DNA of 64,000 nucleotides from Polaromonas sp. CG_9.7 (GTDB lineage Bacteria; Pseudomonadota; Gammaproteobacteria; Burkholderiales; Burkholderiaceae_C): contig NZ_JADOVG010000007.1 in the NCBI RefSeq assembly GCF_015752205.1, positions 124,001 through 188,000 on the forward strand. The letters run 5' to 3'. The notes beneath the pieces were generated by a model. The model had not been told where the DNA came from, searched no databases, and saw only the letters and a list, made by a program, of their open reading frames with translations. Of the stretch, positions 28,556-36,207 are shown piece by piece. Each line of letters opens with the position of its first letter. Position 1 is the first letter of the stretch. A program made the translations under genes and the position numbers.

Positions 28556-30094
28556 TTAACCCTGGGCAGCAACCTTGACAGCTTTACTTTGAAGTTTATT
28601 CAAAGCACTTAAATAAGCTTTGGCCGAGGCCACCACGATGTCAGGATCGGAGCCTGTTCCATTCACGACACGTCCGCTATTTTGTAAGCGCACTGTCACT
28701 TCACCCTGGCTTTCGGTTGAACCACTGATGGCATTTACCGAATAAAGTACCATTTCAGCACCGCTTTTGACATGGATTTCGATCGCCTTGAGCGATGCAT
28801 CTACAGGGCCATTTCCATCGGATTGTCCTTTGACCTCTTTTCCGGCGACAGTAAAAACGACGCAAGCCTGAGGACGTTCCCCAGTTTCGCTGTGCTGTGA
28901 CAGGGATACAAAACCATACTGCTCGTTACTGTGGGTAACGCTTTCATCGCTGACCAAAGCAAGAATGTCCTCGTCAAAAATATCACTCTTGCGGTCTGCG
29001 AGATCCTTGAATTTTACGAAGGCATTGTTGATATCGGTTTCGCTTTCCATAGCAACGCCAAGTTCCTGCAGGCGCTGCTTGAAGGCATTTCGTCCGCTCA
29101 GCTTGCCCAACACAATCTTGTTAGCCGACCAGCCCACATCTTCTGCACGCATGATTTCGTAAGTGTCGCGCGCCTTGAGCACACCGTCCTGATGAATACC
29201 AGAGGCATGGGCAAAAGCGTTGGCGCCAACAACCGCTTTGTTAGGCTGCACGACAAAACCGGTGGTCTGGCTCACCAGACGGCTGGCTGCAAGTATTTGC
29301 TGTGTATCGATTCCCAAGTCGAGATCAAAGTAATCCTTGCGTGTTTTGACCGCCATCACCACTTCTTCAAGTGAACAGTTGCCAGCGCGTTCGCCCAGGC
29401 CGTTGATGGTGCACTCCACCTGCCGGGCGCCGCCGATCTTCACGCCTGCAAGTGAGTTCGCAACGGCCATGCCCAAGTCGTTATGGCAGTGCACTGACCA
29501 GACCGCCTTGTCACTGTTGGGAATGCGCTCACGCAGGTTTTTTATGAAGTTGCCATACAACTCAGGAATTGCATAGCCCACGGTGTCAGGAACATTGATG
29601 GTGGTTGCACCTTCGTTGATGACTGCCTCAATTACGCGGCACAAAAAATCCGGATCGGAGCGATACCCGTCTTCGGGACTGAACTCGATGTCTGCCATGA
29701 GGTTGCGGGCAAACCGCACAGACATCTTCGCCTGTTCAAACACCTGGTCGGGGGTCATTCGCAGCTTTTTTTCCATGTGCAGGGCACTTGTCGCCAAAAA
29801 GAGATGCAAACGACCCGCATTCGCCGGCTTCAGCGCTTCGGCGGCCCGCGATATATCACGGTCGTTGGCACGAGCCAGCGAACAAATAGTGGAATCCTTG
29901 ATCACTTCTGCAATGGCCTTGACACATTCAAAGTCCCCGTTCGAACTGGCCGCAAAACCAGCCTCGATCACATCAACCTTCAACCGTTCCAGTTGTCGTG
30001 CAATGCGCAGTTTTTCGTCACGGGTCATGGAAGCGCCAGGCGATTGCTCTCCGTCGCGCAAGGTGGTGTCGAAAATAATGAGTTTGTCAGTCAT
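28556..30094 (-). CDS. leuA: 2-isopropylmalate synthase
   Basis: LeuA makes 2-isopropylmalate from acetyl-CoA and 2-oxoisovalerate, the first step of leucine synthesis. The 512-residue long-form enzyme has the catalytic HMGL-like barrel ([17 protein letters not shown] near residue 6; [28 protein letters not shown]) and a C-terminal LeuA allosteric dimer domain that senses leucine. The ATG at 30094 follows a GAGAGAA ribosome-binding sequence; the frame is open 13 codons further but without support. A leucine-rich leader and attenuator precede it. Confidence 0.97.
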
Positions 30095-30222
30095 GGGAAT
30101 TCTCTCGATTCGATGGGATTGGCAGGGTTGCAAAAGGGCAGCAAGGCTGAGGAAGAGCGTCAGGACATAACGTTAAGCAGGTTTTAATGACATTAAAGTG
30201 TCCGGTTATAAAAAACCAGCAA

Positions 30223-30259
30223 CAAAAAAAACGGCCCGTTGCTGGTGCAAACGGGCCGT
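30223..30259 (-). terminator. Attenuator terminator upstream of leuA
   Basis: A 10-bp perfect stem (30231-30240 with 30250-30259) with a 9-base loop is followed, on the minus strand, by eight T residues (30231 down to 30224). It lies between the leader peptide and leuA. Its 5' arm contains GCCCGTT, which can pair instead with AACGGGC inside the leader, giving an antiterminator. Confidence 0.88.
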
Positions 30260-30280
30260 CGAATCAGGTGTACGCGTACG

Positions 30281-30334
30281 CTACCGTCTCCGCCCGTTGG
30301 CAGATAGCAGTAGTGCTAGCGAAGTATTTTTCAT
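30281..30334 (-). CDS. leuL: leuA leader peptide (attenuation)
   Basis: This is a 17-codon frame with sequence MKNTSLALLLSANGRRR and a TAG stop. It starts 19 bases after the pssA stop and ends about 20 bases before the terminator stem. It has four Leu codons (CTA, CTA, CTG, CTA) within six codons; CTA is rarely used in GC-rich betaproteobacteria. The AACGGGC antiterminator segment lies just behind the Leu run, at bases 30292-30298. A ribosome stalled at the Leu codons would leave it free, while one that reaches the stop would cover it. No strong ribosome-binding sequence is visible. Assigned from structure, not homology. Confidence 0.78.
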   Translation of the reverse strand: MKNTSLALLLSANGRRR

Positions 30335-30353
30335 CAGTTCAATGTACCACAAC

Positions 30354-31166
30354 TTATTTGTGCAGGCCGCGTTCGTCAGGTTCGTCGGTTGAGGTTGAAA
30401 TCATACTGGTCTGCTGGCCATTCGCCTTGCGCCAGCCGTACAGCACATAACCCGACAATCCATAAATCACAAACAAACCGAATATTACTGTTGGAGGATC
30501 AATGTTGATGATGGCAATTCCAAGTGCGATCAGCACGATGACGAAAAAAGGAACGCTGTGCTTCATTTGCACATCCTTGAAGCTGTAGAAAGGCAAGTTG
30601 GTGACCATGGTCAGGCCGGCATACAGCAGCAATCCGAAGGTGATCCAGCGCACATCGTCGCCATCAATGCCCAAGTCGTTCATAAGCCAGATATACCCTG
30701 CCACCAGAGCGGCAGCCGCAGGAGAAGGCAAACCCTGAAAAAACCGCTTGTCGACCACTGCCGTGTTGACATTGAACCGTGCTAGCCGCAAAGCTGCGCA
30801 GGCGCAATAAACAAAAGCGCCAATCCAGCCCCAGCGACCAAGGCTGGTCAGTGCCCAGATATAAGCAATTAACGCGGGTGCTGCGCCAAACGAGACCATG
30901 TCTGACAGCGAATCCATCTGTTCACCAAAAGCGCTTTGGGTATTGGTCATTCGTGCTACCCGACCATCCAGACTGTCCAGCACCATGGCACAAAATACGC
31001 CGATGGCAGCCTGGTCAAACCGTCCGTTCATGGCCATGACAATGGCATAAAACCCGCCAAACAGCGCAGCCAGCGTAAACAAATTCGGCAGTATGTAAAT
31101 GCCTTTGCGCCGTTTACGTGGTAAAACTTCGTTGGCTGTTGTCAGATTTTCATCGCCATCATGCAT
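30354..31166 (-). CDS. pssA: CDP-diacylglycerol-serine O-phosphatidyltransferase
   Basis: PssA makes phosphatidylserine from CDP-diacylglycerol and serine in the inner membrane, the first step to phosphatidylethanolamine. The 270-residue membrane protein has several hydrophobic segments. It carries the CDP-alcohol phosphatidyltransferase motif DG-x2-AR-x8-G-x3-D-x3-D, here from LDGRVARM to DSLSD, near residues 65-88. It is the type II membrane-embedded enzyme, not the E. coli type. It lies between ilvC and leuA; a strong terminator after ilvC suggests its own promoter. Confidence 0.95.
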   Translation of the reverse strand: MHDGDENLTTANEVLPRKRRKGIYILPNLFTLAALFGGFYAIVMAMNGRFDQAAIGVFCAMVLDSLDGRVARMTNTQSAFGEQMDSLSDMVSFGAAPALIAYIWALTSLGRWGWIGAFVYCACAALRLARFNVNTAVVDKRFFQGLPSPAAAALVAGYIWLMNDLGIDGDDVRWITFGLLLYAGLTMVTNLPFYSFKDVQMKHSVPFFVIVLIALGIAIINIDPPTVIFGLFVIYGLSGYVLYGWRKANGQQTSMISTSTDEPDERGLHK

Positions 31167-32976: not shown

Positions 32977-33089
32977 ATAGATAGATTCCTCTTTTCGCTG
33001 CCCTCCCCTGCGCACGGTAATGCGCAGACTCGGCAGGCAATAGATTCGTCAGTTGACGGGGTGAATGAATAGGAGAAATTTCGATGCGA

Positions 33090-34868: not shown

Positions 34869-35194
34869 GATGAACCTTTGTGAATTTCTCTAACGAAATA
34901 CCTAGGGTGCCTCTTGGCTCGCTCTTGTGAAGCCGCGTCGAGACTTGAGGCCAAAACCATAAGCAGAAACATAATCTGCCGAGCCATGACCCGTTTGCCT
35001 TTTGATGTGCAGGCAGCATTATGGCATTGCGCGCGACTTGCCGACGTTTTTTAACCCGCCAATGTCCGAACAGGCAGTTCCGTAACAGGCGTAAACGCGA
35101 TGCGATAATTTCACACTGGCTATCGGCCGAAGGCAACGCAGCGACACATCAAGTCCTTAGCGCTTTGAAAACGCTGGACAACAGGGACTCACAG
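34869..35194. other. Divergent promoter region between ilvB and sigma-factor gene
   Basis: This gap of about 326 bp must hold the promoters for the leftward ilvB operon and the rightward sigma-factor operon. I see no terminator hairpin, no clear operator and no repeat copy. Open frames here are short and lack family resemblance. Confidence 0.5.
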
Positions 35195-35761
35195 TTGGCA
35201 ACTGAACAAGAACTTTCCGATTTTTTGAAAAGCGTTGAAAAAAGAGCTTTCAAGCGGAGTATTTACCACGTCCGCGATGAAGAAGCAGCGCTTGACATCG
35301 TTCAGGACAGCATGATGAAACTGGCCCAGTACTACGGCGACAAGCCGGCGGCAGAACTGCCCATGCTGTTTCAGCGAATTCTTTCCAATACGACGCTGGA
35401 CTGGTTTAGGCGCCGGAAGACGCGTAACGCCCTTTTTTCCAACTTGAGCGAGTTTTCTGTATCCGGAGAAGATGGAGATTTTGATCTTCTGGAAACTTTG
35501 GAGAGCCTGACCAACTCCGAAGGAACAGAAAGTGCGCAGGACGCCACTGAACGGGCGCAGATTTTGCGTGCAATCGAAGTTCAGATTCAGGCGTTACCGG
35601 ATCGTCAACGGGAAGCCTTTCTGATGCGTTACTGGGAGGAAATGGATGTAGCTGAAACAGCCGCTGCCATGGGTTGCTCTGAAGGCAGCGTCAAAACTCA
35701 CTGTTCTCGTGCAGTGCACGCTCTCAGCAAAGCGCTGAGCGCCAAAGGAATCAAACTATGA
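35195..35761 (+). CDS. Alternative RNA polymerase sigma factor (ECF-like)
   Basis: The predicted sigma factor of about 188 residues has region 2 (DEEAALDIVQDSMMKLAQYYG, then LSNTTLDWFRRRKTRN) and region 4 (ALPDRQREAFLMRYWEEMDVAETAAAMGCSEGSVKTHCSRAVHALSKAL). Regions 1 and 3 are missing, as in ECF types. I chose the TTG at 35195, with AGGGA 6 bases upstream, because the residues from ATEQELSDFLKSVEKRAFKR onward look family-like. The frame extends upstream to 35021 with basic, unconvincing sequence. The next gene, DUF3619, overlaps it by 4 bases and encodes a one-pass membrane protein, so it may be an anti-sigma factor. Confidence 0.88.
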   Translation: MATEQELSDFLKSVEKRAFKRSIYHVRDEEAALDIVQDSMMKLAQYYGDKPAAELPMLFQRILSNTTLDWFRRRKTRNALFSNLSEFSVSGEDGDFDLLETLESLTNSEGTESAQDATERAQILRAIEVQIQALPDRQREAFLMRYWEEMDVAETAAAMGCSEGSVKTHCSRAVHALSKALSAKGIKL

Positions 35762-36207
35762 AAATTTCTTCAAAGAAAATATCTGTCAATCTGCAAGACA
35801 GATTTGGTATCAAAACCGCATCCTATCTCTCCGCCGGTTCGGCAGAATTGCCCCATGACATTTCCGAACGGTTGCGGTCGGCCCGCGTGCAGGCAGTTTC
35901 CAAGCGCAAGATTACCAGCACCCAAACCGCAGTCGGAGTGATGAACTCAGGGGGTAGCGCAGCGCTGACATGGGGGTCCACCAGCGAAGGATTGAGCTGG
36001 TGGAACCGAATTGGCTCAGTGCTGCCCTTGATTGCACTGGTCGTGGGCCTGTTGGCAATCAATTCGTTTCAAAGAGACAACCGGACTCAGGAACTGGCCG
36101 AAGTGGATGCGGCGCTGCTGACCGATGACTTGCCGCCGGCTGCATTTGCTGACTCGGGTTTTGTTCAGTTCCTAAAAATTGCACGCCAGTCAGACAGCTC
36201 CAAATGA
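35758..36207 (+). CDS. DUF3619 protein, one transmembrane helix
   Basis: The 149-residue protein belongs to the uncharacterised DUF3619 family. It has a soluble N-terminal part of about 75 residues beginning with a family-type LQDRFGIKTASYLSAG segment. A single hydrophobic helix (about residues 84-101, SVLPLIALVVGLLAINSF) is followed by an acidic C-terminal part. Its ATG overlaps the sigma-factor stop and its stop overlaps the next gene, so all three are coupled. Position and topology resemble those of membrane anti-sigma factors, but no known anti-sigma domain is visible. Confidence 0.85.
   Translation: MKISSKKISVNLQDRFGIKTASYLSAGSAELPHDISERLRSARVQAVSKRKITSTQTAVGVMNSGGSAALTWGSTSEGLSWWNRIGSVLPLIALVVGLLAINSFQRDNRTQELAEVDAALLTDDLPPAAFADSGFVQFLKIARQSDSSK

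Follow-up and report, generated by a model that had tools for sequence, protein, structure and literature searches.

The leu attenuator of enterobacteria controls leuA through four RNA segments that can fold in alternative ways (1:2, 2:3 and 3:4). In Salmonella and Escherichia coli its leader, leuL, is rich in leucine codons and uses the rare codon CUA (Carter et al., 1986, and Bartkus et al., 1991, as cited in PMC1183508). For trpL of Sinorhizobium meliloti (rnTrpL/peTrpL), it is known from experiment that the transcript begins at the leader AUG (PMC7298713; PMC10117765). Two actinobacterial systems are also pertinent: the LEU element found before leuA, a pseudoknot in which Leu codons pair with the Shine-Dalgarno sequence of leuA (PMC1262725), and the ilvBNC attenuator of Corynebacterium glutamicum, for which a branched-chain leader and a three-hairpin model have been described (PMC11857589).

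Here we describe a locus of Polaromonas sp. CG_9.7, contained in a window of 64,000 nucleotides (the whole stretch of DNA that was analyzed), which we read, with a probability of about 0.9, as a ribosome-mediated transcription attenuator that would sense charged leucyl-tRNA and control leuA. Like leuL, it combines a Leu-rich leader containing rare CUA codons with four-segment folds and the control of leuA. Unlike leuL, its leader is predicted to be leaderless and lies in the middle of an ilvBHC-pssA-leuA run; the peptide differs, and a fifth segment follows the U-tract. With trpL of S. meliloti it would share ribosome-mediated attenuation with a leaderless leader, the start being a prediction in our case, whereas trpL is alphaproteobacterial and concerned with tryptophan rather than leucine. 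The C. glutamicum ilvBNC attenuator, set beside our leader by description rather than by sequence, likewise has a branched-chain leader and three hairpins in its regulatory region, but belongs to another gene and another phylum. A leucine-run ORF before leuA also recalls the actinobacterial LEU element; identity with the latter is ruled out by the intrinsic terminator, the pairing of the Leu codons with segment 2, and the distance of leuA, whose ATG at 30094 lies ~190 nt past the leader stop. Two features thus set our element apart from the known attenuators: a leaderless start, predicted to be served by a promoter of the element's own, and a conserved fifth segment.

Rfam release 15 yielded no match at the leader at the gathering score and nothing above noise even at E <= 10; nor did it match any of 20 order-level loci. 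We found no description of a betaproteobacterial leuA attenuator in the literature covered; a previous mention in older comparative surveys is possible.

Gene order, leader peptide and alternative folds

Direct reading of the minus strand gives the order pssA, leader ORF, terminator and leuA (Table 1), and NCBIfam models identify leuA, pssA, ilvC, ilvH (acetolactate synthase small subunit) and ilvB in the gene run. The stop codon of pssA (TAA, 30356-30354) is separated by a spacer of 19 nt from the leader ATG, which begins at 30334. The leuA loci closest to that of the window belong to Polaromonas and other members of the Comamonadaceae. Elsewhere in the run, between ilvB and ilvH (32983-33050 of the window, strand -), lies the only Rfam match of the window, the ilvH RNA (RF02993; 92.6 bits), which is already known as a candidate cis-regulatory RNA. 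By eye, a leader ORF is not obvious in the region upstream of ilvB (34869-35020), and the ORF divergent from ilvB (35021-36207, strand +) resembles an RNA polymerase sigma factor and is followed by a short membrane-type ORF.

Table 1. Features of the pssA-leuA region, numbered by position in the window
Feature	Position	Strand	Details
pssA	30354..31166	-	gene upstream of the leader; TIGR00473, 119.8 bits (cut-off 107)
extended -10 TGTGGTACATT	30341..30351	-	hexamer TACATT 30346-30341, directly after the pssA stop; putative
leader ORF MKNTSLALLLSANGRRR	30281..30334	-	17 codons, probably leaderless; direct reading
segment 1 (CTACTGCTATCTGCC)	30299..30313	-	overlaps Leu codons; partner of segment 2, -15.1 kcal/mol
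segment 2 (AACGGGCGGAGACGGTAG)	30281..30298	-	antiterminator strand AACGGGC, 30298-30292; 2:3 folds at -15.4 kcal/mol
segment 3 (ACGGCCCGTT), terminator 5' arm	30250..30259	-	partner of 2 or 4; compensatory changes with 4
terminator loop TGCACCAGC	30241..30249	-	ACCAGC joins the 4:5 pairing
segment 4 (AACGGGCCGT), terminator 3' arm	30231..30240	-	3:4 stem, -20.5 kcal/mol
U-tract, eight T	30224..30231	-	first T is the last stem base; direct reading
segment 5 (GTTGCTGGT)	30215..30223	-	complement of ACCAGCAAC (terminator loop and upper 3' arm); in the window a T run comes next
leuA, 2-isopropylmalate synthase	28556..30094	-	regulated gene; NF002087, 895 bits (cut-off 729); TIGR00973 leuA_bact, 692 bits (cut-off 598.7)

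The leader has Leu at codons 6 (CTA), 8 (CTA), 9 (CTG) and 10 (CTA), that is, four leucines within five codons, and its stop codon occupies 30283-30281. A first-pass annotation made from the letters alone had described a 17-codon leader with four Leu codons, three of them CTA, 19 bases after pssA; direct reading agrees with this, and all the coordinates it gave are correct. CTA is a rare codon here: in 29 long window ORFs it makes up 1.1% of the Leu codons, in 653 ORFs from relatives 1.0%, and the binomial chance of finding three CTA among four Leu codons is ~5e-6. The leader, the Leu run, the AACGGGC copy and the terminator all recur upstream of leuA in ~90 relatives; a Leu-rich leader, an ACGGGC copy and a terminator are present in nearly all of the ~96 relatives with pssA upstream. 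Among 91 distinct regions the common form of the peptide is M(K/N)xISLALLLSxxGRRR (17 codons in 51, 18 codons in 28), and the leader was present in 66 of 68 further stretches that served as a held-out set.

CTA accounts for 218 of the 414 Leu codons in the leaders of relatives, a ~50-fold enrichment, and for 147 of 297 in the held-out genomes; across relatives it is frequent at codons 6, 8 and 10. Codon 8 pairs with the stop codon in the 1:2 hairpin, and codons 6 and 10 lie outside its outer stem. Hence, CTA at the latter two positions is not explained by structure alone, and the rare codon seems to have been selected as such. Moreover, GGGC lies a multiple of three nucleotides from the ATG in 84 of 86 relatives, while the terminator follows the stop codon at nearly any distance between 20 and 32 nt, with some up to 38 nt, which is the mark of a translated frame. 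The comparison of Leu codons upstream of leuA in related genomes, proposed with the first-pass annotation, has recovered both a conserved leader frame and an enrichment of CTA.

The four segments can form the hairpins 1:2, 2:3 and 3:4, of which 2:3 excludes both others, with segments 2 and 4 being copies of AACGGGC that compete for segment 3. The terminator by itself has a folding energy of -22.4 kcal/mol (z = -3.7), a value matched by 1 of 200 shuffles. In relatives, 3:4 shows 55 two-sided compensatory cells, a count that none of 500 shuffles reached, and the changes include AU to CG (32 sequences) and GC to AU (17 sequences). In 1:2, CTACTG pairs with CGGTAG and TCTGCC with GGCGGA; across relatives the two outer parts are kept in 96% and 81% of cells and the inner stem in 62%; overall, 76% of cells are paired, slightly above shuffles. 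This only partly conserved hairpin, with which the classical design would be complete, had gone unlisted in the statement of the first-pass annotation that all parts of the mechanism were present, which described 2:3 and 3:4; the pairing of AACGGGC with GCCCGTT in the arm of a 10-bp terminator with eight T was given there at the correct positions. As for the covariation of AACGGGC and GCCCGTT suggested as a check, 2:3 is complementary in 87% of cells, but no covariation beyond shuffles was seen in 86 relatives, because the core is invariant, with GGG in all of them. This conservation is compatible with an antiterminator without being proof of one.

The effect of a stalled ribosome was modeled by barring the stretch beneath it from pairing and folding the RNA before segment 4 is made. 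In this model 2:3 is the minimum-energy fold with the edge at nt 36 or earlier, and no longer from nt 39 on. With a textbook footprint, in which the front edge of the ribosome lies ~15 nt past the P-site codon's first base, stalls at codons 6 and 8 would place the edge at ~nt 29 and ~nt 35, leaving segment 2 free; codon 9 is borderline, a ribosome at codon 10 would cover half of segment 2, and one at the stop codon would cover segment 2. The calculation thus agrees with the earlier proposal that stalling would free AACGGGC and full translation would cover it. Whether or not the mask is applied, 3:4 is the more stable final fold, and the attenuation model accordingly rests on kinetics, as do all attenuators of this type.

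The promoter-like element and the predicted leaderless start

A conserved extended -10 (TGTGNTACATT) is found 6-7 nt before the leader ATG. Among the 91 relatives, 86 have an extended -10 of the form TGNTNNNNT before the leader start, and in 76 of these 86 the gap from the TGTGNTANANT-like element to the start codon is either 6 nt (46 cases) or 7 nt (30 cases). The held-out genomes (n = 66) have a gap of 7 nt in 33, 6 nt in 11 and 8 nt in 11. Positions left free in the search pattern, namely a TG two bases further 5' and the A residues of the hexamer, are also conserved, at 1.5-1.75 bits. We saw no conserved -35 upstream of the leader in relatives, and a consensus promoter scan, which requires a recognizable -35, lists no site at the leader. 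Leaders in other Burkholderiales families show similar spacing, with a TTGC -35 and a TATAnT -10. When a -10 ends 6 nt ahead of a given base, transcription starts at about that base; hence the AUG is expected at, or adjacent to, the 5' end of the transcript. A Shine-Dalgarno-like motif (AGGA, GGAG or GAGG) occurs in the 20 nt before the start in only 2 of 91 leaders. The leader probably has its own promoter and is probably leaderless, a reading based on the promoter spacing and the missing Shine-Dalgarno sequence, with trpL of S. meliloti as a precedent.

Alternatively, the attenuator might act mainly on read-through from ilvBHC-pssA, in which case TGTGNTACATT would not be a promoter and the leader would be translated by re-initiation or translational coupling after pssA. 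The location of leuA downstream on the same strand fits this, as does the short distance by which the leader of the window follows the pssA stop. However, in relatives the gap between pssA and the leader varies from ~18 to >100 nt, while that between the motif and the ATG mostly stays constant; together with the near absence of Shine-Dalgarno-like motifs and the recurrence of the TTGC...TATAnT pair at equal spacing in other families, this makes such a dependence on pssA unlikely.

For an attenuator served by its own promoter, we infer the transcription start, stalling, leucine response and insulation as follows. A sigma-70 RNA polymerase would start from the extended -10 after pssA, with +1 at or beside the A of the leader AUG, and a ribosome would load on the leaderless message. 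When leucyl-tRNA is scarce, this ribosome would stall at the Leu codons, best at 6 and 8, with its front edge short of segment 2; AACGGGC of segment 2 would then pair with GCCCGTT of segment 3 before segment 4 is made, no terminator would form, and leuA would be transcribed. When leucine is plentiful, the ribosome would reach the stop codon and cover segment 2, or leave and allow 1:2 to form, either of which would lead to 3:4 and a stop at the U-tract. Read-through transcripts from ilvBHC-pssA lack both a 5'-terminal AUG and a Shine-Dalgarno sequence before the leader and are therefore predicted to be mostly terminated whatever the leucine level: with the leader untranslated, 1:2 and 3:4 would form and the RNA would end at the U-tract. 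Thus insulated, leuA would depend on its own leucine-gated start. The earlier suggestion that the internal place of the attenuator lets leuA be tuned apart from its upstream neighbors survives in a refined form, in that the place would matter mainly through the apparent promoter and the leaderless start.

A covarying segment beyond the U-tract

Segment 5 consists of nine bases directly past the U-tract. As its varying spacing made a MAFFT alignment unusable for 4:5, we used an alignment-free test in which the tails were permuted between genomes, and repeated it on 66 stretches fetched later. Complementarity to the own partner was 6.81, versus 5.39 +/- 0.11 with tails exchanged between genomes (n = 90); in the held-out set it was 6.28 versus 5.14 +/- 0.13 (n = 66), with a maximum of 5.59 in 5000 permutations. 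The permutation ignores relatedness, for which the number of distinct perfect pairs makes up in part: there are perfect partners for ten different nine-base sequences, including ACCAGCAAC/GTTGCTGGT, ATTCGCAAC/GTTGCGAAT, AAACGCAGC/GCTGCGTTT, ACCAGCGAC/GTCGCTGGT and GCAAGCAGC/GCTGCTTGC. A good segment 5 partner is missing in roughly a third or more of the genomes. Segment 5 therefore covaries with the terminator loop and 3' arm, a result replicated on held-out genomes.

Covarying inverted repeats also arise at protein sites, and the permutation test cannot tell DNA from RNA; the repeat might thus be a DNA site for a dimeric protein rather than a pairing within the RNA. We regard this as improbable, given that segment 5 lies anywhere from 8 to 32 nt from the terminator core, with many values between, a spacing too loose for a fixed dimer, and that the other half of the repeat sits inside the terminator hairpin.

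If segment 5 pairs as RNA, its role may be one of several. T is enriched directly behind it (0.67, 0.53, 0.48 and 0.41 at successive positions, versus ~0.2), which partly supports 4:5 as a second, overlapping terminator, but a run of four T follows it in only 31 of 92 cases, as it does in the window. Other possible roles are a pseudoknot with the U-tract spanning the lower terminator stem or a 5' stabilizer of the leuA message. As a tentative and rather doubtful extension of the attenuator model, the element might be origin-selective and work with five segments. Because only a transcript starting at the leader AUG would have a translatable leader, the element would switch its own promoter by leucine but stop ilvBHC-pssA transcripts constitutively. 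In read-through RNA, segment 5 would invade the terminator loop and form either an overlapping second terminator or a pseudoknot by which the induced level is set or the leuA message protected. We know of no segment 5 in S. meliloti trpL.

Distribution and linkage to isopropylmalate synthase genes

A covariance model of the element (R1; 131 positions) has one strong match in the Polaromonas sp. CG_9.7 genome (134.1 bits; next best 20.3) and matches 163 of 201 genomes of the host's family at E <= 0.01. Across the order, in 150 genomes, strong matches (E < 1e-6) occur only in the host's family and one other, and no copy was found in the plasmid collection. In many relatives the attenuator and leuA are separated by another isopropylmalate synthase gene, one of the leuA_yeast class (TIGR00970), and there one attenuator may control two isozymes. 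In an example (L034:6206-7939) and similar loci, ~1.9 kb lie between pssA and leuA, an insert absent from the window. The element also stands directly before a leuA of this second class, as judged by the protein start downstream of it and named by TIGR00970, in five genomes with a weak best match to the window-type leuA and two of the other family; one genome (G045) has two copies, one per leuA class. The occurrence before both classes implies that the element travels with leucine synthesis and not with pssA.

Other Burkholderiales families have different Leu-rich leaders, mostly with CTG codons and ending in LLLRPAR or LLLRLAR, ~70-220 nt upstream of leuA (L113, L115, L120, L122, L128-L131, L134-L136, L139-L144, L149 and L151). 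Their TTGC-TATAnT promoter is usually placed 6-7 nt before the ATG, the U-tract terminator is mostly absent, and a C-rich stretch often follows the stop codon; these may be Rho-dependent or translational leucine switches. At two further loci (L116 and L117), an ATG placed 6 nt past the -10 is a possible start of the leader ORF (MLMNFS..., in frame with MNFS...LALSLKLGAGKA), and the U-tract terminator is clear (CCCCAGC..GCTGGGGTTTTTT); this is apparently a further version of the attenuator.

The leader might also be seen chiefly as the source of a short RNA or peptide that is released and acts in trans, with attenuation secondary, as reported for rnTrpL/peTrpL of S. meliloti (PMC7298713). The predicted leaderless attenuator RNA of ~110 nt does resemble rnTrpL, and the peptide is conserved, but its conserved residues are accounted for by the Leu codons together with those whose letters make up the antiterminator, and we consider a main product of this kind very unlikely. 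That the terminator is merely the plain end of the pssA operon, an ordinary thing to find after an operon, and the ORF a chance frame, is ruled out by the conservation of the peptide, the frame, the rare codons and the antiterminator copy, and by the presence of the element before the other leuA class.

The case for attenuation, built from comparative sequence evidence, combines the leader, its codon bias, the promoter-like element and its spacing, the covariation of the terminator and of 4:5, and the linkage to isopropylmalate synthase genes. The core of the first-pass interpretation, a classical leucine attenuator, is borne out by the leader frame, the rare Leu codons, the covarying terminator, the stall spacing and the same linkage. 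It is thus very probable that leucine synthesis is under classical attenuation, of which Rfam has no record, in a species-rich betaproteobacterial family whose members include common genera of soil and freshwater. The conserved promoter spacing makes the leaderless translation of a regulatory ORF directly testable in these bacteria, and the covarying segment past the U-tract is a testable puzzle regarding the events after the terminator is passed. More generally, the order-wide comparison points to a wide occurrence in Burkholderiales of leaderless leucine leaders before leuA, with the downstream switch differing between families.
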